This document shows, piece by piece, positions 37,791 to 57,857 of a stretch of DNA of 64,000 nucleotides. How positions within the stretch are numbered: the first letter of the stretch is position 1; each line of letters opens with the position of its first letter. A model generated the notes under the pieces. It searched no databases and was not told the DNA's origin. It saw only the letters and a list, made by a program, of their open reading frames with translations. The stretch is from Bacteroidota bacterium. Its GTDB lineage: Bacteria > Bacteroidota > Bacteroidia > B-17B0 > Aurantibacillaceae. A program made the translations under genes and the position numbers. The stretch is from positions 1-64,000 of the forward strand of contig SYAL01000047.1 in NCBI GenBank assembly GCA_005787585.1, in the 5' to 3' direction.

Positions 37791-39626
37791 CTAGCTTAAT
37801 TCAAATTGCATTTTACTAAGTTTGTAATATAACCCTTGTTCGTTTAAACTTAGTTGTTGGTGGGTACCAATTTCTTGAACTAAGCCTTGATGTAAAACAA
37901 CAATTTTATCTGCATTACGAATAGTAGCAAGCCTATGAGCAATTACTAAACTTGTTCTCCCAATCATTAGTTTATCTAAAGCTTCTTGAACTAAATATTC
38001 ACTTTCACTATCTAAACTACTAGTAGCTTCATCTAAAATTAAAATACTTGGATTTTTTAGCACTGCTCGTGCAATAGCCACACGTTGCCTTTGCCCTCCT
38101 GAAAGTTGAATCCCTCTTTCACCAACAAGAGTATCAAATTTATCAGGGAAAGAATTAATAAAATCTAAAGCATTGGCTTTTTTAGCGGCTTCAGCTATTT
38201 CCGCCTCCGTAGCATTAGCTTTACCGTAAGCGATATTATCTTTAATACTTCCGGCAAATAAAATAACATCTTGCGGCACTAATGCTATTTGTTTTCGAAG
38301 TTCGGTTAAACTCATGGTCTTAGTATCTGTGCCGTCAATTAAAATTTTTCCATTTATTGGATCGTAAAAACGCAACACTAAACTTGCAATTGTTGTTTTT
38401 CCGGAGCCGCTGCTTCCAACCAAAGCTACTGTTTGTCCGGCACTTACTTTAAAAGAAATATTTTTTAGAACATTAAACTCAGGTCTAGATGGATAATTAA
38501 AAGAAACACCATCAAATTCAATTTCTCCACTGGTTGACTTTACAGCTATATTTTCATTGATAATATCAATATTTTCGATATCGCCATCAATCAATTCAAA
38601 CACTCTATCTGTTGCCCCCAATGCGCGCTGTAAACTTGCAATTTGATCGGGTAAGCCGCCTAAACTCCCTGCAACAAATAATGAAAGCATTAAAAACTGA
38701 CCAAATTCCTCACCTTTAATATCGCCACTAATAACAGCTTTTACCATTAAATATAAAATAAAAAACATTGCACCGAATACAAACGATACTATAAAAGCAA
38801 AAAAAGCTCCTCTAAAAATACCGTACTTAATCCCAAATTTTTTAATGTCATCTGTTTTGGCAGTAAATTTATTTATTTCGTAAAACTCATTAGTAAAAGT
38901 TTTTACATTGGTAATACCTGTTAAACTTTCACTTACAATAACATTAGCTTCTGCTATTTTATCTTGAAAATCTTTAGAATATTTTCTAATTCGTTTTGCG
39001 AAAATTATTGATACGAAAGTTAATGGAGGGATAATAAAAATAAACCATCGAGCAATTGTCCAATCTATTTTGATTATCATTAATACTAAACCACCTATAC
39101 CAACGATACTTTGTCGAATAATTTCGGCAATGTTAACAGTAAAAGCTTCGCTAATAACGTTTACGTCTGTTGCCATACGACTATTTAATTCTGCTACTTG
39201 ATTTTTTGAGAAAAATCCCATAGGCATTTGAATGATTCGTTTAAAAGTATCATTACGTAGTCCTTGCAAAATACTTTCAGTTACTTGAGAGAAAAAATAA
39301 ACTCTACCAAATGAAATAAACCCTTGAAAAATAAGTATAATTAATAAAGTAATTCCTAAACCTTGTAATTCAGAAAATTTTTGAACAGTATCCATTTTAG
39401 AATCACTTAAAAAACCAAATAATGATCCAGCTTTTAAAGGAAAAACTAAACCAATACCTGCTGAAGCCACTAAAAATATCATTCCTATTAAGAACTTCCA
39501 TTTTTGCTTACCTAAATAACCAAATAACCGAAAAGATTTTTTAAAATTTGCCAAAGTTAATTTTGCCTTTGGAAGCTCATCCATATCTGAAATTCCAGCT
39601 CTAGTTCCTTTTCGACTTTTTGCCAT
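37791..39626 (-). CDS. MsbA-like ABC exporter (fused permease and ATPase)
   Basis: The 611-residue half-transporter has six predicted transmembrane helices in the first 330 residues (for example FLIGMIFLVASAGIGLVFPL). A nucleotide-binding domain follows with Walker A VALVGSSGSGKTTIA, Q-loop IALVPQDVILFAG, signature LSGGQRQRVAIARAVL, Walker B ILILDEATSSLD and switch IAHRLAT. This organisation matches lipid and drug exporters of the MsbA/BmrA type, acting as a homodimer in the inner membrane. Given the number of lipid A genes here, lipid export is attractive, but nothing in the sequence fixes the substrate. It forms a single-gene unit. Confidence 0.92.
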   Translation of the reverse strand: MAKSRKGTRAGISDMDELPKAKLTLANFKKSFRLFGYLGKQKWKFLIGMIFLVASAGIGLVFPLKAGSLFGFLSDSKMDTVQKFSELQGLGITLLIILIFQGFISFGRVYFFSQVTESILQGLRNDTFKRIIQMPMGFFSKNQVAELNSRMATDVNVISEAFTVNIAEIIRQSIVGIGGLVLMIIKIDWTIARWFIFIIPPLTFVSIIFAKRIRKYSKDFQDKIAEANVIVSESLTGITNVKTFTNEFYEINKFTAKTDDIKKFGIKYGIFRGAFFAFIVSFVFGAMFFILYLMVKAVISGDIKGEEFGQFLMLSLFVAGSLGGLPDQIASLQRALGATDRVFELIDGDIENIDIINENIAVKSTSGEIEFDGVSFNYPSRPEFNVLKNISFKVSAGQTVALVGSSGSGKTTIASLVLRFYDPINGKILIDGTDTKTMSLTELRKQIALVPQDVILFAGSIKDNIAYGKANATEAEIAEAAKKANALDFINSFPDKFDTLVGERGIQLSGGQRQRVAIARAVLKNPSILILDEATSSLDSESEYLVQEALDKLMIGRTSLVIAHRLATIRNADKIVVLHQGLVQEIGTHQQLSLNEQGLYYKLSKMQFELS

Positions 39627-39820
39627 ACAACTTACAAAAATACAAGTAAAATTATATTTAGTGTCATTATATTGTAATAAAAGTAGGATATATTTGAAAA
39701 TTTATTATTAAAATGTTTATCATTTGATTTAATGAAAAATATTAATGCATATAAAAATAATTAAATTTATAACGATGCGTTATTTTAGGTGACTTGGTTA
39801 ATTAATAACCTATTTAGTAA

Positions 39821-40954
39821 ATGTATAACAATAAGATGCGAAAGTTAAAATATATATTACCATTTATTATTTTACTTATTTTTATGTCTTATACATTTAC
39901 AATATCAAAAACAAAACCCTGTGAAATTAATTTAAGCTATACACTTAATTTTAAGGGCGATTCTTTAAAAAATAAACTCATCGGATTAAAATGGACTCTC
40001 TCGTATTTAGGTGCAAAATTGCCTAAAGGAAGTTTCAATAAATCTATCAGTGCTATTAGTAATGAAACCTTTACTATAAATTTTGATAGTATTGGATTTA
40101 ATGAGGACGCCTTAAATTCTATTAAAGAACTTATCAATAACTTAAAAAAAACGGAGGAGTATAGATACAAGAATTCTATTGATTTAGGCGAATTTGTAAC
40201 CTTAACTATTGGTGTGAGTGAAAATTATTATAGTATTACTGGCGTAAAAAAAACATTTACTGAATTTAAAAAATCATACTTATTTAACGATAGTCTTAAA
40301 TTTGCTGTACTTAATTCAACAGTCGCCTTTCATAACAGAATTTTGTACTTGAGCACCGGAAAAGCAACTAATAAACAAGCTTATTTTGCTTTAGAGGGCA
40401 ATGGATCAGTTATAGATGATTCGTTCGTTCCAGAAGTATTTGAAACCTTTGACATAATGGAAAATGGACAATTACGTTTTGCCATATTTAATTCAAATGG
40501 CGATTTAATTTCAGCCAGTAATCCAAAGTTAGGAATTGCCGGCAAACCAGGCAAGTGTATATGGTGTCACGAAATATCGCTATCTCCATTATTTAAAGAA
40601 ACTCCAGATGTATTAAATTACATGACAAAAAACGAATTTACAACTATTATAAAACAAAGGATGATTAATTTAAATGATTATCGAAAAAGATTAGATTCTG
40701 ACATTGATTTCACAAAAAATCAAGAGCATACACAAATGGAACTTTTATACATAAGTTATATGGAGCCATCTTTAGAAAGACTTTCTCAAGAATGGAACAT
40801 GCCTATTAATACTTTAAAAAAATTATTGAATAATAAACTCACTCATAAACACGAGGAATTTAGTTTTTTCGGAAATTTATATCATAGAAACGATAATTTA
40901 AAAATAGCCCCTTACATATTAAATAAAATACCATTATCGGTAAGAGAAAAATAG
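39821..40954 (+). CDS. Membrane-anchored or exported protein with one CxxCH motif, family unknown
   Basis: I do not recognise this 377-residue protein. It begins with a basic stretch and one hydrophobic segment (about 6-27; a second in-frame ATG at 39836 starts MRKLKYILPF), so it is exported or anchored with a periplasmic body. The only distinctive motif is GKCIWCHEISLSPLF at about residues 244-258, a single CxxCH that could bind c-type haem. The flanking text (VIDDSFVPEVFETFDIMENG and GIAGKPGKC) resembles a cytochrome-like segment inside a larger domain. Regions after about 275 are helical. It is a lone gene between two minus-strand genes; no cytochrome maturation genes are close by. Confidence 0.7.
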   Translation: MYNNKMRKLKYILPFIILLIFMSYTFTISKTKPCEINLSYTLNFKGDSLKNKLIGLKWTLSYLGAKLPKGSFNKSISAISNETFTINFDSIGFNEDALNSIKELINNLKKTEEYRYKNSIDLGEFVTLTIGVSENYYSITGVKKTFTEFKKSYLFNDSLKFAVLNSTVAFHNRILYLSTGKATNKQAYFALEGNGSVIDDSFVPEVFETFDIMENGQLRFAIFNSNGDLISASNPKLGIAGKPGKCIWCHEISLSPLFKETPDVLNYMTKNEFTTIIKQRMINLNDYRKRLDSDIDFTKNQEHTQMELLYISYMEPSLERLSQEWNMPINTLKKLLNNKLTHKHEEFSFFGNLYHRNDNLKIAPYILNKIPLSVREK

Positions 40955-40964
40955 AAAATTAATG

Positions 40965-42428
40965 CTAATTAAACTCCAAAGATTTATCCTTAAGATCAAG
41001 AGCGACTATGGATGAAATTGAAACAAAAAACAACATACCAATTTTATCTGTTTCAATAAAGCCATTAAAAAAGGCATGAACAATGTATGTAAAGAAGCCT
41101 AATAAAATAAACATTGTTGTGTCTCTTATAAAATCATCCTTAGTTTTATAAATTATTTTTATGGCAAAATAACATGTTAAAATAATTAAGAGTACAAAAT
41201 TTAAAAAACCAACTAAACCAGTTTCACTTAAATAATTTAAATACTCGGAGTGAGCGTGTCCCTTGTTTCCTTTAAAGGTACTAATTGCGGTCATGTCTTT
41301 GCGAAGCTGATAAGAGCCATAAAAAAATTGATAACACCCAGGACCAGAACCAAAAACAGGCTTATCTAAAAACATTTTCCAAGCACATTTCCATCTATTT
41401 AACCGTTCTGTATTCGATGCATCCGTTTTTATATTTGTTACCGATTTAAAGTGAGCGCTAACATTATTTTTATGGCTAATTTCACTGTTACGTTCAATAT
41501 ATTCAACTATACTGCTCCAACTTAATGCTATAATAAACGCTCCTATAATAAAAGTACTAATAAAATACTTTACTTTAATTTTAAACTTTAGAATTAAAAA
41601 TAATAAAAGCGAAAAAATTAATGAGAGCCATGCAGCACGAGAATAGGAAAGTACAATACCAATTAATAATATAAAAATTAATACGTTACCCAGCATTATT
41701 TTCAACTTATTTTTCTCAGCTAAACTCTTGACAAGAAAATAAATTGAAAAAGGAGTAATAAATGCTATAGCGGCTCCATAAATAGTATGATCATTATAAA
41801 ATGGTAGGCTTGCCATTACTGACCCTTGAGAGCTGAAATCAAACTGATAATGGAAAACAATAGAATGAATAATAGGGTATATCATTCCAAGGGAGTATAA
41901 CAGCAATACTTTATAAATATTTTTAATATCATGTTTAAATAATTCATTAAATAAATAGTAATAAACAATAATATACATAATTCGAATTAAAGTCCTTTTA
42001 AAAGCTACATCCTTAAGCTGGCATACATAACTTGTAATTATTAACCACACGATATCTATAATTATTACAATAGTTATTGGATGGTAAATAAAACGTTTAG
42101 TAATTTTTAAGTTAAAGGTTACCTTAACAATTACATAAAAAGTTAAAACAAGGCAAATTACTTCAGAGGGAAAATTAATTTTTGAGCTACCAATTACTGA
42201 AGTCTGAATACTGAGAGGTATCGAAAAAGCAAGAAAATATAATGCAGTATGTTTATATTTTAAAACAATATATCCTAATAGAAATATTAAAATTACTTCA
42301 ATAACTATAATTACAGAAATAGAAATATACTCGTTATAAGATAAGGGTAATAATAAACTAATCAATATTGGCACGATTATAAATAAATCAAAATGATTTT
42401 TAAAGAAATTATTTTTCAAATAATTCAA
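40965..42428 (-). CDS. O-antigen ligase/polymerase family membrane protein
   Basis: The 487-residue inner-membrane protein has about twelve hydrophobic segments and a large periplasmic loop near residues 315-395. That loop carries the Wzy/WaaL signature: ERLNRWKCAWKMFLDKPVFGSGPGCYQFFYG, then GHAHSEYLNYLSETGLVG. Enzymes of this family either ligate O-antigen to lipid A-core or polymerise repeat units, and sequence alone cannot separate the two. It starts directly after the Wzz-like gene with no gap, which favours a polymerase/ligase paired with a chain-length regulator. It begins a surface polysaccharide region that extends to 51740. Confidence 0.85.
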   Translation of the reverse strand: MNYLKNNFFKNHFDLFIIVPILISLLLPLSYNEYISISVIIVIEVILIFLLGYIVLKYKHTALYFLAFSIPLSIQTSVIGSSKINFPSEVICLVLTFYVIVKVTFNLKITKRFIYHPITIVIIIDIVWLIITSYVCQLKDVAFKRTLIRIMYIIVYYYLFNELFKHDIKNIYKVLLLYSLGMIYPIIHSIVFHYQFDFSSQGSVMASLPFYNDHTIYGAAIAFITPFSIYFLVKSLAEKNKLKIMLGNVLIFILLIGIVLSYSRAAWLSLIFSLLLFLILKFKIKVKYFISTFIIGAFIIALSWSSIVEYIERNSEISHKNNVSAHFKSVTNIKTDASNTERLNRWKCAWKMFLDKPVFGSGPGCYQFFYGSYQLRKDMTAISTFKGNKGHAHSEYLNYLSETGLVGFLNFVLLIILTCYFAIKIIYKTKDDFIRDTTMFILLGFFTYIVHAFFNGFIETDKIGMLFFVSISSIVALDLKDKSLEFN

Positions 42429-43355
42429 TTATCTCTTTGATTTATTAACTATTAGAATTATTGAAATAACTAAGGAAAGTAAAATAGCTACTAATGCATT
42501 TAAAGCATAGGATGGGTAAACCTTTTTAAATGAAGGTAGTCCTTTATCAATTAAATAAAGTTTTGGTACCGGATTGTCAAGTATTTTCTTAATCTTAAAT
42601 AACTTATTTTCAATTTCTCTTTGCCTATCTAATTGGCTGCGGTAATTAATAATATTTATTCCTACATTAGAATTTTCAATAGAAGCTTGCATTCTATTTA
42701 AATCATTAAAATTTAATTGCGCATTCGTAGCTAATACTAACAATCCAGATAAATTTAATTTATCCAAATCTTTTTTAACAATAGTAATAATTGAATCTGA
42801 AATTTTCGTCTGAAAATCGAGTTCTTCTTTTGCTTTACTGTAAGCCGATAATACATTTTGCTTATAGATTCTCTCTCTAAATTCATTTGCTTTGTCTATA
42901 ATATAATTCACCATATCCGCCGACATATATGGATCTTTTGATTTAACTGAAATAGAGACTGACATATAATTTGTTCTTTCAAATTTTACCATTTTTAAAA
43001 ACATTCTACTTAGCTTATCTCTTCTATCTGTGTCTTTTATATCGATATCAAAATAGGTAATCAAATTAAATTTACTAGCCGTTGAATCCATAATAACTTG
43101 TGATTGCATAATTTGAATTATCCGATCCGCCTCAATATCATATCCAAAATTTGGGTTCTCCACCGAATTTTCTAAAGATGTTGAAGATGGCGGGTATACT
43201 ATCCCATAAGAACGGTATTCATTTGGGATGAAATAAGTAATGACTAAACTTAAGATTAAAGCTATACTAATATTTAAAACTAACTTGAATTTATATTTTA
43301 TTATAAATTCCTTCACATTTTTAGTTTCAAAATCTTGGCTCACTTTGTTTAACAC
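42429..43355 (-). CDS. Wzz-type polysaccharide chain-length determinant
   Basis: The 308-residue protein has the two-helix layout of polysaccharide co-polymerases: a first transmembrane segment at about 26-45 (LVLNISIALILSLVITYFIP) and a second near 278-302. Between them lies a periplasmic helical domain (for example YSKAKEELDFQTKISDSIITIVKKDLDKLN). It ends in a short basic cytosolic tail (VNKSKR), without the tyrosine kinase domain found in some relatives. The start is a GTG at 43355, 71 bases from the divergent radical SAM operon. The ligase/polymerase follows without a gap, so the pair is co-transcribed. Confidence 0.85.
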   Translation of the reverse strand: MLNKVSQDFETKNVKEFIIKYKFKLVLNISIALILSLVITYFIPNEYRSYGIVYPPSSTSLENSVENPNFGYDIEADRIIQIMQSQVIMDSTASKFNLITYFDIDIKDTDRRDKLSRMFLKMVKFERTNYMSVSISVKSKDPYMSADMVNYIIDKANEFRERIYKQNVLSAYSKAKEELDFQTKISDSIITIVKKDLDKLNLSGLLVLATNAQLNFNDLNRMQASIENSNVGINIINYRSQLDRQREIENKLFKIKKILDNPVPKLYLIDKGLPSFKKVYPSYALNALVAILLSLVISIILIVNKSKR

Positions 43356-43426
43356 ACAATAAATTTACTTTATAAAAACAGTTATTCAAATTTTTTAAAT
43401 GGTAAAATTATTTATAAATTTATATT

Positions 43427-44926
43427 ATGCTTAATTTAGTATTATTTAACCCCAGAGCAGCATGCCATAAACCAAGAATACCCAATAGCATATTACAAGT
43501 TGCGTCTAGTATTAATAATATACACAATTATTTTATTATTGACGGTAATCTAGAAACGAACCCACTAGATAAATTATTAGATTGCTTTTCCAAAAATAAA
43601 ATTCAAGTCTTTGGATTAACTGTTATGCCTGGGCCACAGCTTAAGCAAGCAATTCCGTTTTCTAAAATAATTAAAGAAAAATACCCAAATATAGTTATTA
43701 TTTGGGGGGGATATTTTCCTTCAAATCAACCAAAAACAGTTTTAAATTCTGGATATGTTGACTTTATTATTAATGGCATGGGAGATAAAGTATTTCCTGA
43801 ATTGTTGAATTGTATTGAACACGATAAACCCATTTTAAAACTATCTAATATCATTTACAAAAAAGAAAACGACATAATAATATCTAAAAAAGATAATATT
43901 TATGATCTCGAAAAATTGCCCATCCTGCCTTACGAAAAACTAAATACGTTTTACAATATAGATAATTATTTAGGTAAAACATATTTAGGAACTAAAACTA
44001 TTGCCTATCATAGCAGCTTTGGTTGTCCGTTTACTTGCTCATTTTGTGCTGTCGTTCCCATTTATAATGCAAGGTGGAAAGGGTTCTCTGCGCAACGTAT
44101 TTATTCAGACATAATGACTATTAAAAAAAAATATGGAGGTAATGCAATAGAATTTCATGATAATAATTTTTTTGTTTCAGAAAAAAGAACTGTAGAATTT
44201 GCTAAACTAATTTCAAAAGAAAAAATGAACTGGTGGGGGGAGGCAAGAATTGATACTATGGATAAATATAGTGATGAGTCATTAAAACAAATTAGTGAAA
44301 GCGGCTGTAAAATGATATTCTTTGGCGCTGAAACAGGAAACGATGAAGTTCTTAAAAAAATAGATAAAGGTGGCAGTCAAACAGGAGAACAAATAATTAG
44401 TTTCGCTAAACGCATCGCTAAATTTGATATTATACCTGAATACTCTTTTGTTTTAGGTATACCAGGAGATAATGAATACGAGATAAATAAACAAATCGAT
44501 GAAGATATTAATTTTATCAGAAAAGTAAAAGAAGCTAATTCAAAAACGGAAATAATAATTTATACCTACAGCCCAGTTCCTACAGAAGGAAGCGATTTAT
44601 TTAATAAAGTGCAATCATCAGGATTTAAATTTCCCGAAAAATTAGAAGATTGGATTAGCCCCGAATGGGAAAAATTTGATTTAAGAAAAAATCCATTAAC
44701 GCCTTGGCTTAAACCTTATATGATTGATAAAATTAGAAATTTTGAAACTGTCTTAAATGGTTATTACCCTTCTATTTCAGATATAAGATTTTCTTACAGA
44801 AAGAAAAGAATAATAAAAACAATTTCTACTATAAGATATACTGCCAAAATTTATAAATTTCCGAATGAAATAAAACTCCTACAGAAAATTTGGAAATACC
44901 GACAACCAGAAATAGAAGGATTTTAA
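43427..44926 (+). CDS. Cobalamin-binding-type radical SAM protein A
   Basis: The 499-residue protein has an N-terminal domain of the B12-binding type (about 1-135; FGLTVMPGPQLKQA, IVIIWGGYFPSNQP). A radical SAM domain follows with the Fe-S motif GCPFTCSFC (Cys200, 204, 207). The SAM-binding GGE-like position is replaced by a FHDNNFFV region, and FGAETGNDEVLKKIDKGGS and EYSFVLGIPGDNEYEI follow. The C-terminus (about 400-499) is basic and specific. Such enzymes typically methylate unactivated carbons or rearrange substrates in lipid, cofactor or natural product pathways. It heads a tightly packed six-gene operon; the product is unknown. It is distinct from the two more alike paralogues downstream. 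Confidence 0.88.
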   Translation: MLNLVLFNPRAACHKPRIPNSILQVASSINNIHNYFIIDGNLETNPLDKLLDCFSKNKIQVFGLTVMPGPQLKQAIPFSKIIKEKYPNIVIIWGGYFPSNQPKTVLNSGYVDFIINGMGDKVFPELLNCIEHDKPILKLSNIIYKKENDIIISKKDNIYDLEKLPILPYEKLNTFYNIDNYLGKTYLGTKTIAYHSSFGCPFTCSFCAVVPIYNARWKGFSAQRIYSDIMTIKKKYGGNAIEFHDNNFFVSEKRTVEFAKLISKEKMNWWGEARIDTMDKYSDESLKQISESGCKMIFFGAETGNDEVLKKIDKGGSQTGEQIISFAKRIAKFDIIPEYSFVLGIPGDNEYEINKQIDEDINFIRKVKEANSKTEIIIYTYSPVPTEGSDLFNKVQSSGFKFPEKLEDWISPEWEKFDLRKNPLTPWLKPYMIDKIRNFETVLNGYYPSISDIRFSYRKKRIIKTISTIRYTAKIYKFPNEIKLLQKIWKYRQPEIEGF

Positions 44927-44928
44927 CT

Positions 44929-45597
44929 TTGAAACTATTAAAAATAATTGCTACTAAATTTATTAAACCGCTTATAAATTGGTATTTAAAAAAGCCCCGT
45001 AAATATAATCATGATGGATTTAAACTGATAATTAATCCAGGCGTTTTTCATCCAGGTTTCTTTTTTAGTACAAAATACTTCTACTCATTTATTAAAAAAC
45101 TTACTTTAATAAATCAAACAGTTTTAGAAGTAGGCAGTGGTTCTGGTTTATTAAGTTTATTATTATGTAAAAAAAAATATATCTTAACAGCCATTGATAT
45201 TAGTGAATCGGCGATACAAAATACAAAATTAAATTTTGAATTAAATAAAAATTGTATTACTAATAACTTCAAAATCATTACCTCTAACCTATTTGAAAAT
45301 TTACAAAATAATATTTATGATTTAATTATAATAAATCCTCCATACTTCTTTAAAAACCCAATAAACGATGCTCAAAATGCTTGGTATTGTGGTAATAATG
45401 GTGAGTATTTTGAGCAATTATTTTATCAATTACCCCTTCATATCCATTCTTCTACTTCTATTTATATCATCTTAGCAGATAATTGTGATATTAAAAAGAT
45501 TACTGATATTGCACAAAAATATAGTTGTACTTTTACTTTGAGAGAATCAAAAAAAATCTTTTGGGAAGTAAATTATATCTATGCGCTTAACTATTGA
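44929..45597 (+). CDS. Class I SAM-dependent methyltransferase (first of the cluster)
   Basis: A Rossmann-fold methyltransferase with motif I VLEVGSGSGLLSLLLC and IDISESAIQNTKLNF (acidic loop), and LIIINPPYFF, an NPPY tetrad. That tetrad is typical of methyltransferases acting on N of protein, rRNA or tRNA, but it also occurs in small-molecule enzymes. I place the start at the TTG 2 bases after the previous stop (222 residues). An upstream TTG at 44890 would overlap the radical SAM gene by 37 bases. The stop overlaps the next TTG start by four bases (TTGA). The substrate is likely the same molecule handled by the radical SAM proteins. Confidence 0.8.
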   Translation: MKLLKIIATKFIKPLINWYLKKPRKYNHDGFKLIINPGVFHPGFFFSTKYFYSFIKKLTLINQTVLEVGSGSGLLSLLLCKKKYILTAIDISESAIQNTKLNFELNKNCITNNFKIITSNLFENLQNNIYDLIIINPPYFFKNPINDAQNAWYCGNNGEYFEQLFYQLPLHIHSSTSIYIILADNCDIKKITDIAQKYSCTFTLRESKKIFWEVNYIYALNY

Positions 45598-47060
45598 AAT
45601 TACTTTTTACACATAGCTATTTTTTAAATTTTGATGCAAAGCAACTTAAAACAGCGATGCCATATCCACCATTGGGTACACTTTACGCTTTAGCTTATCT
45701 TAGAAATCATAGCTTTGATGTTAAGCTATTTGATACTCAATTTTGTTTAAATGCCAATGAGATTAATTCCACAATTGATAACTATAAACCTGATGTTTTA
45801 GTAATTTACGATGACGGGTTTAATTACTTAACAAAAATGTGCCTAACCAATATGAGGAAGGCGGCCTTTAAAATGCAATCATATGCTAAAAAAAAAGGTT
45901 GTAAAATAATAGTTTCAAGTAGCGATGCTACTGATCACGCATATAAATATTTACAAAATAACGCTGATATAGTTATATTTGGCGAAGCTGAACAAACTCT
46001 CTTGGAAATTTGTGAGGCTATTAAAAAGAAAAAATTATTAAAACATATTGACGGTATTATTTATTTGAATGAAAATAATGAAATCATTCGAACAAAAAAT
46101 CGTATTGTTTTAAAAGACTTGGATCAATTACCTCTTCCTGCATGGGATTTGCTTGATATTAATCCGTACAAAAAAATGTGGCAAAATAAACATGGGTACT
46201 TTGCATTAAACTTTGTTACCACGCGTGGCTGCCCATATAAATGTAATTGGTGCGCTAAACCAATTTACGGCAATAGATATAACTCTCACAGTGCAGAAAA
46301 AATTGTTATACAAATTAAACAATTACAAGGACAATTTGGGTTTACCCATGTTTGGTTTGCAGATGATATTTTTGGGCTAAAATCTAATTGGTTGAAAGAA
46401 TTCAATAAACATATACAACAACAAAATATAAAGATAAAGTACAAAATTCAATCTCGAGCAGATTTATTATTAGAAGACGAAAATATAAAATACTTGTCCG
46501 AAAGTGGTTGTGAAAAAGTTTGGATAGGTGCTGAAAGTGGCTCTCAAAAAATACTAAATGCAATGGATAAAGGAATAACTGTTCAACAAATTTATGAAGC
46601 AACAAGCCTACTTAAAAAAAATAAAATAAAAGTATGTTTATTTTTACAATTTGGTTATTTAGGAGAAACTATTGAAGATATTAATAAAACGATAGATATG
46701 GTAAAAACTATTATGCCTGATGAAATTGGTGTTTCGGTTTCATATCCTTTACCTGGTACCAAATTTTACGAAAAAGTAAAAGAACAATTAATAGAAAAAA
46801 CTAACTGGACAGACAGCGACGATTTAGATTTAATGTTTAAAAATACATATTCTAATAATTTCTATAAGGTATTGCACAGGTATATTCATAAAAATTACAG
46901 AAAACAATTATCCATTCAGTCATTAAAAAAATTAAAATCATTTCGCGTAAGTTCCAATGATATATACAATATAGCCTCTATAGCCTATTACTATCCAAGT
47001 TTGATTTTAACTAAAAATAAATTAAAAAAAATAGAACCTGATGCATTTAAAAGCATTTAA
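45594..47060 (+). CDS. Cobalamin-binding-type radical SAM protein B
   Basis: The 488-residue protein starts with a TTG inside TTGA overlapping the methyltransferase stop. Its N-terminal (about 1-140) B12-binding-like domain contains PPLGTLYALAYLRNHSFDVKLFD. The radical SAM domain has GCPYKCNWC (Cys213, 217, 220), VWFADDIFGL, VWIGAESGSQKILNAMDKGIT and FLQFGYLGETIEDI. It is similar to the protein at 47839 along the whole length (shared MK/MEILLTH opening, GCPYxCxWC, and AESGSQKI). This suggests a tandem duplication now separated by a methyltransferase. Members of this class act on lipids, isoprenoids or small peptides; no partner here identifies the target. Confidence 0.88.
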   Translation: MKLLFTHSYFLNFDAKQLKTAMPYPPLGTLYALAYLRNHSFDVKLFDTQFCLNANEINSTIDNYKPDVLVIYDDGFNYLTKMCLTNMRKAAFKMQSYAKKKGCKIIVSSSDATDHAYKYLQNNADIVIFGEAEQTLLEICEAIKKKKLLKHIDGIIYLNENNEIIRTKNRIVLKDLDQLPLPAWDLLDINPYKKMWQNKHGYFALNFVTTRGCPYKCNWCAKPIYGNRYNSHSAEKIVIQIKQLQGQFGFTHVWFADDIFGLKSNWLKEFNKHIQQQNIKIKYKIQSRADLLLEDENIKYLSESGCEKVWIGAESGSQKILNAMDKGITVQQIYEATSLLKKNKIKVCLFLQFGYLGETIEDINKTIDMVKTIMPDEIGVSVSYPLPGTKFYEKVKEQLIEKTNWTDSDDLDLMFKNTYSNNFYKVLHRYIHKNYRKQLSIQSLKKLKSFRVSSNDIYNIASIAYYYPSLILTKNKLKKIEPDAFKSI

Positions 47061-47826
47061 TAAATATGCGCACCAATATGACGATCATTTCACTAATTCA
47101 TTAATCGGAAAAATTCAACGGCAACAAGTGTATGATTATTTGAAAACTTTAAATTTTTTTTCTAATAAAAAAGTGCTCGAAATAAATTGTGGTACAGGTG
47201 AAGATGCCAAAACTCTCAGCAAATTCGCTTCTAAAGTTTATGCAACAGATATTTCAGAACAAATGATTGATATTGCCAAACTAAAAAATAAAAATAATTC
47301 AATAGAATTTATACCCTGTTCAATTCAAAACATTCCTAATAAATATATCAATGCTAACTTCGAAGTAATTTTTTCAAATTTTGGTGGGTTAAACTGTTTA
47401 GATGCGAATGAACTAAAAGAATTTTCAATTCAACTTCCAACATACATAAACCATAATGCTGATCTTGTTTTAATAATTATGGGAACAAAATGCATTTTAG
47501 AAAAATTTTATTTTATTTTAAAATTCGATATTAAAAAAGCTTGGAGAAGGAAACAAAGGCATGGAATAGAAACTTTTCTAAATGAGGAAGTTTTTAAAAC
47601 CTACTATTATTCTCCAAAGCAAATAAAAATAATTTTTAAACCTAATTTTAATGTAATAAAGATAAAGCCCATTGCTTTGTTCGTTCCGCCTTCCTATTTT
47701 GAATCTTTTATTAAAAAACATCCAATTTTATTTAAGTTACTTATTAAATTAGATTCGGTATTTATACGATTTAATTTTTTAGCTAATTACTCGGATCATT
47801 ATCTTATTCATTTAAAAAGAATTTAA
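47041..47826 (+). CDS. Class I SAM-dependent methyltransferase (second of the cluster)
   Basis: The 261-residue methyltransferase of the UbiE/COQ5-like small-molecule class has motif I VLEINCGTGEDAKTLSKF, YATDISEQMIDIAKLK, and IFSNFGGLNCLDANEL (post I). It is basic in the middle (KKAWRRKQRHG), perhaps contacting lipid or an anionic substrate. The start at 47041 overlaps the previous gene by 20 bases and the next gene begins 12 bases after its stop, so it is fully embedded in the operon. The overlap and the lack of its own promoter suggest stoichiometric production with the radical SAM enzymes. Confidence 0.84.
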   Translation: MHLKAFNKYAHQYDDHFTNSLIGKIQRQQVYDYLKTLNFFSNKKVLEINCGTGEDAKTLSKFASKVYATDISEQMIDIAKLKNKNNSIEFIPCSIQNIPNKYINANFEVIFSNFGGLNCLDANELKEFSIQLPTYINHNADLVLIIMGTKCILEKFYFILKFDIKKAWRRKQRHGIETFLNEEVFKTYYYSPKQIKIIFKPNFNVIKIKPIALFVPPSYFESFIKKHPILFKLLIKLDSVFIRFNFLANYSDHYLIHLKRI

Positions 47827-47838
47827 TACGTTTATTTA

Positions 47839-49236
47839 ATGGAAATCTTACTCACGCATGGTTATTTTTTAGAAGAAGATGAAAAAGAAAAATCTATAAT
47901 GCGACCGTATGCTCCATTGGGATTACTATACATATCATCTTATTTAGAACATTTTGGTTACCATAATAGTGTTTTTGACAGTACATTTCAAAGTTTTATT
48001 AAATTAAAGCAACACTTAATTTCCACAAAACCAGATGTAATTGCTATTTATGTTAATCTAATGACTAAACTAAATGTAGTTAAATTAATTCAGTTTATAA
48101 AAAATGAGGAGGAGCTAAAAAATAAAAAAATAGTTTTAGGCGGACCAGAAGTTACTTATCATGCTGATAAATTTTTATCTATTGGTACTGATTTTATTAT
48201 CTTAGGAGAAGGAGAATTGACTATGCTTGAACTTATAAAATCAATTGAATCAGGTCAAACAGATTATTCAGAAATTGCTGGACTGGTATTCAAAAAAGAA
48301 AATGTTATTATCACCAACAAAGAAAGAGAATTAATAAAAGATATTTCGAAATTACCATTACCAAATAGAAAAAAAATTGATATAAATAAATATATTGATA
48401 CATGGCGAAAAAATCATGGATTTGGTATGATAAGTGTAAGTTCGATGCGTGGTTGTCCTTATACTTGCAAATGGTGTAGTAGAGCAGTTTATGGCGGAAC
48501 ATATCGTAGGAGAACCCCCAATCAAGTAGCGGAGGAAATGTTGTTTTTGAAAACTATTTACAATCCTGATATGATTTGGTTTGTGGATGATGTTTTTACA
48601 ATTCATCATCGTTGGTTAAAAGAATTTGCAGATTGCGTAAAAAAATTGAGTGCTTTTATTCCCTATGAAATTATTTCACGTGCAGATAGATTAAACGAAG
48701 ATATTATTATTATTTTAAAAAATAGTGGTTGTAAACGCATTTGGATTGGTGCAGAAAGTGGTTCTCAAAAAATAATTGAAGCAATGGATAGACGTGTTGA
48801 TGTTGTTGAAACTCAAAAGATGATTCAACTAGCAAAAAAACATGGTATTGAGGCAGGTACATTTATTATGTTGGGATACCCTGGCGAAACCAAGGCCGAT
48901 ATAAAACAAACAATTCAACATTTAATTGTGTCTAATCCTACTTATTTTACAATTACCGTTGCCTATCCAATCAAAGGTACGCCGTTATTCGACGAAATTA
49001 AAGATAAACTTATAGTGCATCCTCCATGGGAAACGTCTACCGATAGAGAAATTGATTTTAAGCGAATTCACTCAACAAATTATTATAAGTATGCTGTAAG
49101 ATGGGTCGTTAATAGTGTTGAATTAGAGACAAAATCAAATCCAGTTTTAAAAAAAATTAAACTATATTTAAAATCTTATTTTGCTCAACTATTAATGTTT
49201 AAAGAAACTCTATTTACTGAAACCATTAAGTCATAA
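47839..49236 (+). CDS. Cobalamin-binding-type radical SAM protein C
   Basis: The 465-residue paralogue of the protein at 45594 has MEILLTHGYFLEEDE at the start, a B12-binding-like domain (YAPLGLLYISSYLE, IVLGGPEVTYHADKFL), and radical SAM motifs GCPYTCKWC (Cys206, 210, 213), IWFVDDVFTIHHRW, IWIGAESGSQKIIEAMDRRVD and FIMLGYPGETKADI. It has its own ATG with a normal spacing. The three radical SAM proteins of this operon may act on successive positions of one scaffold. Its stop lies 53 bases before the TTG I annotate for the nucleotidyltransferase, but the open frame of that gene extends back into this one. Confidence 0.88.
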   Translation: MEILLTHGYFLEEDEKEKSIMRPYAPLGLLYISSYLEHFGYHNSVFDSTFQSFIKLKQHLISTKPDVIAIYVNLMTKLNVVKLIQFIKNEEELKNKKIVLGGPEVTYHADKFLSIGTDFIILGEGELTMLELIKSIESGQTDYSEIAGLVFKKENVIITNKERELIKDISKLPLPNRKKIDINKYIDTWRKNHGFGMISVSSMRGCPYTCKWCSRAVYGGTYRRRTPNQVAEEMLFLKTIYNPDMIWFVDDVFTIHHRWLKEFADCVKKLSAFIPYEIISRADRLNEDIIIILKNSGCKRIWIGAESGSQKIIEAMDRRVDVVETQKMIQLAKKHGIEAGTFIMLGYPGETKADIKQTIQHLIVSNPTYFTITVAYPIKGTPLFDEIKDKLIVHPPWETSTDREIDFKRIHSTNYYKYAVRWVVNSVELETKSNPVLKKIKLYLKSYFAQLLMFKETLFTETIKS

Positions 49237-49288
49237 TCAACTTGCTGTTATAAAAACAATTATCTACTTCGATATTTTTAACTACCCA

Positions 49289-50119
49289 TTGAAAATAAAT
49301 GAAATTATTAAATTCTGCTCCATCCAAATTAGTTTAGTTGACATTGAAAAAGTAACCTCAGAATTAATTACAAATAAACTTATTATTAAAAATAACGAAT
49401 ACTATTATTTGTCAAGCAACGATGAATTAATTATTCAAAATAGAAAAATAAATGAAGAAAGAGCGAAAAAATCAGAAAAAAAAATCAAAAAATATTCTAA
49501 ATTAATATGCTCCTTTCCCTTTGTTGAAAATTTATGTATTTCCGGTTCTTTTTCTAAAGGAATTTTAACTGTGGATGGTGATATTGACTACTTTATTATT
49601 TGCCAACCGAATAGACTTTGGCTTTGCAGATCCTTATTAATTCTCTATAAAAAAATCTTCCTTTTAAACTCTAAAAAATACTTTTGTGTAAACTATTTTA
49701 TAGATACTAACACTTTAGTAATACCTGATAAAAATATTTATACTGCTACTGAAATTGCTACTCTTATTCCAATAAATAATATTTCGTTATTTAGTCGTTT
49801 TATAAACGAAAATTTATGGGTCTACAAGCAATTTCCAAATATTAATGAAAATAGAACTACTCCCTATTTTAATTATACAAAAAATAAAATTTCTCAATTA
49901 ATTGAAAAGTGCTTTGGAGGTAACCTAGGTAACAAACTGGATGACTATTTATTAAAACTCACATTAAAAACTTGGAAAAAAAAATTTCCACATTTCAATA
50001 CCATTGATTTTAAATTAAACATGCGTAGTAAAAAATACACTTCAAAACATCACCCACAAGGGTTTCAATCAAAAGTTCTTCTTGAAATAGATAAAAAATT
50101 ACAAAACTATATTCATTAA
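49289..50119 (+). CDS. Nucleotidyltransferase-fold protein
   Basis: The 276-residue product from the TTG has the nucleotidyltransferase core CISGSFSKGILTVDGDIDYFIIC, with GS(x)G and the DxD acidic pair, and continues with an alpha-helical region. The frame stays open upstream: codons back to about 49238 give QLAVIKTIIYFDIFNYP. That matches the usual N-terminus of this family, so translation may begin at a non-standard codon upstream of the TTG, overlapping the previous gene. It closes the radical SAM operon. Its substrate could be a nucleotide sugar-like or lipid-linked intermediate; this is inference. Confidence 0.72.
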   Translation: MKINEIIKFCSIQISLVDIEKVTSELITNKLIIKNNEYYYLSSNDELIIQNRKINEERAKKSEKKIKKYSKLICSFPFVENLCISGSFSKGILTVDGDIDYFIICQPNRLWLCRSLLILYKKIFLLNSKKYFCVNYFIDTNTLVIPDKNIYTATEIATLIPINNISLFSRFINENLWVYKQFPNINENRTTPYFNYTKNKISQLIEKCFGGNLGNKLDDYLLKLTLKTWKKKFPHFNTIDFKLNMRSKKYTSKHHPQGFQSKVLLEIDKKLQNYIH

Positions 50120-50174
50120 GTAAACTATAGATAATTATTTTTATTTCTCTTTTGATTGATTAATAAATGGCTAA

Positions 50175-51740
50175 CTATTTTATTGGTATTATGCGTAATT
50201 TATAAAATCTTATCCCTTGATTTAAATCACTCATAAAAATTATACTTGTATCGTTAAATAATTTAGCATTCTTTTTATTATCTTTTGTCCCACATAATAA
50301 CTTGCTTTTATAATAAATGAGATTATTTTTAAGAGTAATATTTGAATCCTCCTTAATATAATCTTTGTTTCTAAATAATTCTCTATGGGTTTTATCTCCA
50401 TTAGTAGAATATAAAATCAACGAGTCCTTACTTATTTTATAGTCATACATAATACCTTTAGTATTCTGAATATTATAATATTTAGCTGGAAGAATTAAAA
50501 AAGAAATATACTTTAACAAAAAAATTGATCCAAATAATACAACTAACATTCCATAATTAAATTTTACTTTATATTGATTAACAAAAATTATATATCCTAC
50601 AAGTAATAATAATAATTTAATGTATTGAATTAAAATTGGGGAATTACTTAAACTAACTATAGGAATATTTAAAGCAATAAAAAAACAAGATAAAATAGCA
50701 ACCGTTCCTTTTTTTGTAATACTTAGTTTTAATATACTCACAAGAAATGGAACTAATACTATCATTCCATAAGTTGTGTTATAACGGCCTATCAATATGA
50801 TGACGGTCAAACACATTCCAAAAAGCATAAAAGAATCTATCTTTCTTAATTGAAATAAACTATTAATTATCAAAGAAACACAGATACTTTCCAAACAAAT
50901 CAACAAAGTAGGATTATTTGCAATTGGATATCTATTGACTAATCCATCAAACGAAAATATATTTAATAACATACTATATATGCTTTGATTTCCATAATAA
51001 TAAGCGCCCACAACATCATTATTTAATAATCTCGGAACAATATCGGTAAAATAATACTTAACCATTTCTGAATTTGAAGCATATGCAGTAATAATATAAA
51101 ACAACAAACTTATAACTACAGTAAAAACAAAAATTTTATTCTTCTTTTTAAAAAGAAAATAAATTAAAATTATTGCCGGGAAAATTTTTAAACAAATACA
51201 AACAGTAACGAAAAAACTTGCTAATAGCGTTTTATTTTTTTCTGACGCAATAAATGCTTCCATCAAAAGGCTAATTATTAACAAGTAAGTTTGGCCTTGA
51301 ATTATATTATTATATAAAGTAAAAAAAAATACTAAGGGAAGAAATAAAATAAACCAACTCTTAACCAGTAACACTTTCAAAATTCTATTTAATGAAAAAC
51401 AAAAGAGAACTATACTTAGTGCATTAAAAATTAATTTAGAGGTAATACTTTTAAATATAGTAAATGGTGAATAAAATAATAAATTAAATGGAGGCACTGG
51501 TATATAATTTTCGAAAAAATTAGTCTCGCCATAAGCAATTATTTGATTATTAAAATGGACTATACTTTTATAATTTTCAATTGTAAAATTTCCATCCAAA
51601 TAAATTTTACTTCCATAAAAATAATTCCCAAAATCACCTATAGGATAATTTTTAGTAGCAATAATTATAATTAACCCAATAATTAAAAAACCTAAACAGC
51701 AAATAGTGTTATAATTATAAAAAAGCCTGCTTATTTTCAT
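50175..51740 (-). CDS. Polytopic glycosyltransferase, GT87/DUF2029-like
   Basis: The 521-residue membrane protein has about ten to twelve transmembrane helices and, after the first, the acidic loop GDFGNYFYGSKIYLDG characteristic of GT-C polyprenyl-phosphate-sugar glycosyltransferases of the GT87/DUF2029 type. A soluble C-terminal part of about 90 residues follows the last helix. Enzymes of this class use lipid-linked donors to glycosylate lipids or surface polymers on the periplasmic face. It is convergent with the radical SAM operon, and no terminator is apparent between them. The nearby ligase/polymerase and Wzz-like genes support a role in a surface glycan. Confidence 0.72.
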   Translation of the reverse strand: MKISRLFYNYNTICCLGFLIIGLIIIIATKNYPIGDFGNYFYGSKIYLDGNFTIENYKSIVHFNNQIIAYGETNFFENYIPVPPFNLLFYSPFTIFKSITSKLIFNALSIVLFCFSLNRILKVLLVKSWFILFLPLVFFFTLYNNIIQGQTYLLIISLLMEAFIASEKNKTLLASFFVTVCICLKIFPAIILIYFLFKKKNKIFVFTVVISLLFYIITAYASNSEMVKYYFTDIVPRLLNNDVVGAYYYGNQSIYSMLLNIFSFDGLVNRYPIANNPTLLICLESICVSLIINSLFQLRKIDSFMLFGMCLTVIILIGRYNTTYGMIVLVPFLVSILKLSITKKGTVAILSCFFIALNIPIVSLSNSPILIQYIKLLLLLVGYIIFVNQYKVKFNYGMLVVLFGSIFLLKYISFLILPAKYYNIQNTKGIMYDYKISKDSLILYSTNGDKTHRELFRNKDYIKEDSNITLKNNLIYYKSKLLCGTKDNKKNAKLFNDTSIIFMSDLNQGIRFYKLRIIPIK

Positions 51741-51912
51741 TAACTATAATTTTTATCATAAACGCCTACTTATAGTCTCATAAAAAAATCAATATTTAGG
51801 CCCTAATTGGTTAAATTTAGCCCATTTTATTTCATTTTTACTCATTTTCAACTGATTTTATTGCTTTTTTACTTTATCAAAAAATCCAATTAACATCTAT
51901 TTTTTAATTAAG

Positions 51913-56843: not shown

Positions 56844-57857
56844 TTATTCCCAAACCTTTGTTCCTTCAGAACAATTAGTACAAATATCAATTTTATTTCT
56901 ACTTTCTAAAATTGATTTTCTAAAATTATTATAAGAATCAGAATACCAAATGTCTCTAAAATTTTCAACTTCTAAGTTCCCTAATTTATACTTTGCATCT
57001 TTATCAAAACAACATGGTACAATTTTTCCATCCCAAGTAATTACACATCCTTGCCACATTCGCCAACATTGATCAAGTAATTTATTTTTTATTTTAAATA
57101 CTCCATTTTCATCTTTTTTATACCTAGAATAATTTTCAAACTCAGGAATCAATTCATTATCATTCTCAAAATCATAAATTTGTGCTGTTTTTATTTTTAC
57201 TTCGTTTACACCCAATTCTTTTCCTAATTTTTTAACCGAAGCGATTTGATTTTGGTTCGATTTAAATACAATAAATTGCCAGACAATATGTGGCGTATTG
57301 CTTTTATGAATTTTTTTTTGCCTTATAATTTCTTTTGTGCCTTCAATTACTTTATTTAAACTGCCTCCAACTCTATAGTGCTCATAAACCTCTTGAGTTA
57401 AACCGTCGACTGAAATAATAAGCTTATCTAATTTAGATAAAATTGTATTTTTTGCTATTTCTTCGCTTAAAAAATGGGCATTAGTACTTGTTATTGTATA
57501 AATATTTTTATCATTTGCCATTTTAACCATATTTAAAAAATCTGGGTTTAGGTAAGGCTCGCCTTGAAAATAAAAAGTTAAGCTATGAACATGCGATTTA
57601 ATTTGACAAATCACTTTTTCAAATAAATAAATATTAAGCATACCAATCGGTCTTGTAAAAGTTCTTAAACCGCTTGGACATTGAGGACATCTTAAATTAC
57701 AACTAGTAGTAGGCTCAATACTCACAAAAAGAGGAAGCCCAAATTGTTTTGGGAATTTGATAAGTCGCGATAAATAAAAGCCAATAACTAATTTTAAAAA
57801 GTTGTAACATTTATAAAAAGAGAGTTTCTTGACTATGCCTATATAATATATTATCAA
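56844..57857 (-). CDS. Radical SAM/SPASM-domain protein
   Basis: The 337-residue protein has a radical SAM domain with TTSCNLRCPQCPSGL (Cys53, 57, 60) and a C-terminal SPASM-type region. That region has CWRMWQGCVITWDGKIVPCCFD, then GNLEVENFRDIWYSD, and CTNC, giving at least six auxiliary cluster cysteines. SPASM proteins modify peptides, proteins or small substrates. No precursor peptide or transporter gene lies nearby, so it is an orphan here. The start is a TTG at 57857; no ATG precedes the conserved domain in the open frame. The nearby genes (folB, an Ig-like lipoprotein) give no functional hint. Confidence 0.88.
   Translation of the reverse strand: MIIYYIGIVKKLSFYKCYNFLKLVIGFYLSRLIKFPKQFGLPLFVSIEPTTSCNLRCPQCPSGLRTFTRPIGMLNIYLFEKVICQIKSHVHSLTFYFQGEPYLNPDFLNMVKMANDKNIYTITSTNAHFLSEEIAKNTILSKLDKLIISVDGLTQEVYEHYRVGGSLNKVIEGTKEIIRQKKIHKSNTPHIVWQFIVFKSNQNQIASVKKLGKELGVNEVKIKTAQIYDFENDNELIPEFENYSRYKKDENGVFKIKNKLLDQCWRMWQGCVITWDGKIVPCCFDKDAKYKLGNLEVENFRDIWYSDSYNNFRKSILESRNKIDICTNCSEGTKVWE

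Follow-up and report, generated by a model that had tools for sequence, protein, structure and literature searches.

B12-dependent radical SAM enzymes have been described mainly from natural-product and pigment synthesis and from a few modifications of proteins or lipids, and OxsB, BchE and AprD4 are non-methylase relatives within this enzyme class. In OxsB, TsrM and TokK, the residue below the cobalt is located in the loop that follows strand 3 (PMC13331322), and in the fosfomycin pathway a nucleotidyl handle (2-HEP-CMP) precedes the B12 radical SAM methylase Fom3 (PMC8158854). Here we describe six genes in a 64,000-nucleotide stretch of DNA from a Bacteroidota bacterium, referred to as the window, which encode three B12-type radical SAM proteins (A, B and C), two methyltransferases (m1 and m2) and a nucleotidyltransferase (N). 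We propose, with a probability of about one half, that these genes constitute one pathway that puts unusual groups on a surface-glycan precursor, most likely by C-methylation, with nucleotidyl transfer as the first step. The proposal draws on sequences and structure models, namely on gene content, motifs, the B12-enzyme fold of A, the nucleotidyltransferase fold of N, co-occurrence, nesting, and presence or absence as a single block.

Inspection of the open reading frames bore out the first-pass annotation of six genes in the order A-m1-B-m2-C-N, all on the plus strand between 43427 and 50119 (Table 1). Two of the start positions were corrected. The start of m1 is most likely TTG 44929, 2 bases past the stop of A, instead of TTG 44890, since it yields a protein of 222 aa compared with an orthologue median of 225. 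The frame of N remains open 5' of TTG 49289 and encodes YFDIFNYPL there, which corresponds to the family-conserved segment YFDxFxYPL. N should therefore start upstream of TTG 49289, from which the ORF is too short, and CTG 49217, located inside the end of C with an overlap of 20 bases, is a plausible start. An internal stop in N that came up in the genome search was ruled out as a nonsense mutation, because it is the normal terminal stop. A promoter and terminator scan gave promoter-like matches at chance level and one terminator-like site.

Table 1. Features of the window around the six-gene set.
Feature	Position	Strand	Remarks
Block: haem protein, Wzy, Wzz, A-m1-B-m2-C-N, GT87	39627..51867		12.2 kb; between ABC gene and rpmH
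Probably secreted haem-motif protein	39821..40954	+	Single CxxCH (CIWCH); no Pfam family
Wzy_C / O-antigen ligase-polymerase-like membrane protein	40965..42428	-	Wzy_C 100 bits
Wzz-like chain-length protein	42429..43355	-	24.7 bits, just under the Pfam cut-off of 25.5
A: B12-type radical SAM protein	43427..44926	+	499 aa; CX3CX2C at C200/C204/C207; invariant MPGxQ loop after strand 3
m1: class I methyltransferase, HemK/PrmA-like	44929..45597	+	Conserved NPPY; start most likely TTG 44929
B: B12-type radical SAM protein	45594..47060	+	488 aa; CX3CX2C from C213; most constant partner of N
m2: class I methyltransferase	47041..47826	+	BioC/UbiE-like motif I, without NPPY; usually directly 3' of B
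C: B12-type radical SAM protein	47839..49236	+	465 aa; CX3CX2C from C206; paralogue of B (~36%)
N: Pol-beta-fold nucleotidyltransferase, unnamed family	49217..50119	+	GSxSK...DxD; predicted start CTG 49217
GT87-family (GT-C) glycosyltransferase	50175..51740	-	Pfam 81 bits; in the genus only in N-positive genomes
337-aa ORF reading like a SPASM-type radical SAM protein	56844..57857		CNLRCPQC; outside the block

The description of three cobalamin-type radical SAM proteins was supported. Their Radical_SAM scores (PF04055) are 51, 74 and 83 bits, all above the Pfam cut-off of 29.5. Each protein carries the CX3CX2C cluster of class 1 cobalamin radical SAM enzymes, beginning at residue 200 in A, 213 in B and 206 in C. 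The B12-binding family PF02310 (cut-off 32.1 bits) is clear in C (51 bits), borderline in A (31.7 bits) and below the cut-off in B (27.4 bits). An N-terminal Rossmann-type B12-binding domain was found by fold in A, the only one of the three that was modelled, and by Pfam in C, B being the least certain. The AlphaFold model of A (pLDDT 87.2) matched MgmA, OxsB, TsrM, TokK, CysS and AprD4 over both domains in Foldseek. Within each group, the loop after strand 3 is almost invariant, but the three groups differ from one another: it reads MPGxQ in 90 of 90 A sequences, DGFNYLTKMCL-type in 74 B sequences and YxNLMT in all 35 C sequences. This pattern would fit true cobalamin binding with three distinct chemistries, without proving either. 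In some relatives, A has a divergent paralogue of 471 aa and 28-29% identity as its neighbour (L065:15135-16550 and L071:9314-10729, both on the minus strand), so that the radical SAM set can expand further.

None of A, B and C reached the cut-off of the NCBIfam equivalogs BchE, HpnJ, PhpK, HpnR, rSAM_ladder_B12 or AprD4. The best score per protein, obtained with BchE or HpnJ, ranged from 105 to 161 bits compared with cut-offs of 481-578, the highest being 160.7 against 481 (BchE). Both m1 and m2 are class I methyltransferases by Pfam, as originally annotated. NPPY is a motif of amino- and amide-methylating enzymes, and its presence in m1, but not in m2, suggests that m1 may methylate an amino or amide nitrogen.

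A tenable, though more tentative, explanation is that the B12 radical enzymes of the same glycan or glycoside pathway deoxygenate, contract or oxidise the sugar instead of methylating it, as in the cases of AprD4, OxsB and BchE. AprD4, a sugar 1,2-diol dehydratase, is the best PDB sequence match of A and C and has a WWxExRID stretch in common with A, but CX3CX2C is kept in A while the third cysteine is spaced differently in the AprD4 alignment. By fold, OxsB is among the top matches of A, and the methylases MgmA, TsrM, TokK and CysS are equally close. While the top NCBIfam scores belong to HpnJ and to BchE, which is a non-methylase (PMC13142503), the two ordinary methyltransferases in the operon fit a methylated product.

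With respect to N, the first-pass annotation as a nucleotidyltransferase is borne by the fold of its model and a conserved motif, whereas the window protein belongs to no Pfam or NCBIfam family; it also had no sequence match in the PDB. One N orthologue scored 20.0 bits with PF01909 (NTP_transf_2), just under the cut-off of 21. The AlphaFold model of N (pLDDT 92.7) resembles MNT and AadA-type nucleotidyltransferases over approximately 100-120 residues, and its nearest folds are MNT, AadA-type, HalB and CdnC proteins, all of them weak matches with a best E of 0.0075. The Pol-beta signature GS-x(9-13)-DxD is present, and G86, S89, D98 and D100 (numbering from TTG 49289) are invariant in 59 N sequences.

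Among 246 genomes of the class, taken as one fixed sample, A was carried by 31, B by 37 and N by 40. N occurred in every one of the 37 genomes with B, and 30 of the 31 genomes with A had both N and B (Fisher p <= 1e-28 for co-occurrence, uncorrected for relatedness). The positive genomes belong to 16 to 21 families, and 8 of the 30 genomes with all three genes have A and B on separate contigs. This near-perfect co-occurrence at the genome level, together with translational coupling, bears out the view that the six genes form one functional set, which we consider well supported. The nesting of A within B within N suggests that N would act first and B thereafter, with A being later or optional.

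The neighbourhoods read in approximately 150 loci revealed two units among the homologues, N-B-m2(-C) and A-m1, each of which can stand alone between unrelated genes elsewhere. The order N-B-m2 is kept in other classes of the phylum, often as a free-standing unit. Neighbouring genes overlap or lie almost end to end: m2 adjoins B in 51 loci, where the median overlap is 4 bases, and m1 adjoins A in 60, compared with 24 loci for m1-N and 22 for N-B. In the genus, N is normally located between m1 and B, and in the window it is the last gene. The window order is a local fusion of the two units, which refines the description as a six-gene operon. The grouping is judged not to be due to chance, since orthologues of A, B and C with approximately 50-75% identity have the same neighbours phylum-wide. 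A comparison of homologous operons, as proposed in the first-pass annotation, showed that the flanking genes of free-standing copies vary. Pfam analysis of 125 genes flanking such copies yielded no recurrent partner, and 18 free-standing loci had no recurrent glycan families.

Further genes accompany the module in relatives. A SPASM radical SAM protein of approximately 350 aa joins it in L117, L121, L202 and about 40 other loci, including many Chitinophagaceae and Sphingobacteriaceae; this protein is absent from the window operon and scores below every NCBIfam equivalog cut-off. In 14 loci (L148:8041-9913, L145 and other Mucilaginibacter-type loci), A has next to it a closely spaced pair of genes, which encode a methyltransferase and an amidohydrolase nearest to aminofutalosine and nucleobase deaminases. 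Many genomes of the genus have the module flanked by a 242-aa protein that belongs to no Pfam family (L050:14468-15196); it was present in 12 of 12 genus genomes searched, module-free ones included.

The Wzy-like, Wzz-like and glycosyltransferase genes of the block are those of a surface-polysaccharide assembly locus, and neither an initiating transferase nor a flippase was found among the block's genes. The sister genome G004 is collinear with 82-90% DNA identity on both sides of the block. Its ABC gene lies directly beside rpmH with nothing between them, which indicates that the 12.2 kb occur as a whole or not at all. At the 5' end of the ABC transporter gene (39208-39626), identity to G004 is approximately 70%, compared with approximately 88-90% at the other flank, and this stretch is possibly a recombination boundary. 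Within the genus, GT87 was found in 17 of the 25 genomes with N and in none of the 15 without it, in four cases on another contig than N. The haem protein occurred in 13 of 40 genus genomes, all 13 of them N-positive, and only together with N and GT87. Given that genomes lacking N are generally smaller in this genus and that size alone can yield co-occurrence, we regard this association as supportive, not decisive.

Where N is detached from B, a Wzy gene, an initiating sugar transferase or a glycosyltransferase is immediately adjacent in 20 of 28 loci, and in each of the three genomes of the class sample that have N but lack B, polysaccharide genes adjoin N. A position inside a glycan region is common but not obligatory, because free-standing copies have no constant neighbours. 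The original placement of the operon inside a surface-glycan region is correct for its neighbours here, but does not extend to the units standing between unrelated genes elsewhere. With no recurrent glycan families in the 18 free-standing loci, the glycan substrate is not fixed by neighbours. The first-pass annotation had left a methylated lipid, a lipid-linked glycan or a small molecule as possible products; the co-occurrence with GT87 and the haem protein and the presence or absence of the block as one piece favour the glycan over a lipid or a free small molecule.

A secreted small molecule or nucleoside-like natural product that is glycosylated and exported is an unlikely alternative. In Mucilaginibacter and relatives from other classes, A lies beside glycosyltransferases and an MsbA/PglK-like ABC exporter, and the SPASM radical SAM protein and the deaminase-like amidohydrolase also accompany A there. 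However, no scaffold-forming gene (NRPS, PKS, peptide precursor) is recurrent, and Wzy and initiating sugar transferases point to the assembly of a polymer. Small-ORF inspection of the operon gave no candidate for a RiPP precursor peptide, and there is no intergenic room for one. Even less probable is the modification of a membrane lipid or hydrocarbon, as in hopanoids and ladderanes, with incidental glycan neighbours. The NCBIfam matches include HpnJ, HpnR and rSAM_ladder_B12, but with scores far under every lipid equivalog cut-off, and although in many genomes the units are free-standing among unrelated genes, lipid-synthesis genes do not recur in the vicinity of the module and glycan assembly genes adjoin the detached N. 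An anti-phage defence island is very improbable: MNT-type and Hailong-type nucleotidyltransferases and radical SAM proteins do occur in defence, the nearest folds of N are MNT, HalB and CdnC proteins and the block is variably present, but the PADLOC matches of A-C and the methyltransferases are only weak and generic, the window N has no match there, an effector gene is lacking, and the orthologues persist at high identity across families.

According to the proposed tailoring of a surface-glycan precursor, this precursor would be a sugar nucleotide, or a polyprenyl- or lipid-linked sugar. N would act early by transferring a nucleotidyl group onto the precursor, or onto an acceptor that is incorporated into it. 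Thereafter B, along with C in genomes that have it, would apply [4Fe-4S]/SAM/cobalamin chemistry to the precursor, the most likely reaction being C-methylation of an unactivated carbon, and m2 would methylate a heteroatom. A together with m1 may perform a second tailoring step, later or optional, before variable assembly genes, here GT87, Wzy and Wzz, would polymerise or attach the glycan. We infer the order of the steps, the glycan substrate, the methylation and the activity of every enzyme, and consider the odds on substrate and chemistry to be about even. The position of N as last gene of the window operon, not 5' of B, counts against this explanation, as do the B12-binding score of B under the Pfam cut-off, the weak structural matches of N and the non-methylases among the relatives of the enzyme class.

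A wider version is more doubtful, in which glycan tailoring of this kind is phylum-wide, with N marking a sugar or lipid-linked sugar and two to three B12 radical SAM enzymes modifying unactivated carbons. If true, B12-dependent radical chemistry would be brought into bacterial envelope glycans. Up to three such enzymes with a nucleotidyltransferase across many families of Bacteroidota would represent a widespread, unexplored cell-surface chemistry and would tie envelope structure to the supply of vitamin B12. Since the set occurs in the cultivable genera Niastella, Mucilaginibacter, Longitalea and Terrimonas, it is directly testable.

Each of the proteins belongs to a known superfamily, whereas the set, in particular the fixed N-B pairing, appears in no curated family or open-access paper that we found. 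The first-pass annotation had matched the operon to no described pathway and proposed a search of curated families; no curated pathway model fits, and no pathway for the set was found in the open-access literature. A-C resemble the class 1 cobalamin radical SAM enzymes OxsB, TsrM, TokK, CysS and MgmA in their domain order, with a Rossmann B12-type domain and a TIM-barrel radical SAM domain carrying CX3CX2C, and the model of A matches at Foldseek E values of 1e-14 to 1e-18. They differ by identities of approximately 12-16%, other invariant sub-cobalt loops, and the lack of a common equivalog and a common gene context. AprD4, as the best PDB sequence match of A and C, provides a precedent for a sugar substrate (an aminoglycoside sugar), but the NCBIfam AprD4 model gives only 52-83 bits compared with a cut-off of 500, and the spacing of the cysteines differs in the alignment. 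N shares the Pol-beta nucleotidyltransferase core and the GS...DxD motif with MNT antitoxins and AadA-type adenylyltransferases, from which it is set apart by an extra N-terminal winged-helix-like region, a C-terminal helical part, a weak fold match and the lack of a toxin partner. Although no phosphonate genes were seen here and the comparison concerns only the way of working, Fom1/Fom3 offer a parallel for the proposed sequence of events, in which nucleotidyl transfer to a precursor is followed by the action of a B12 radical SAM methylase (PMC8158854).
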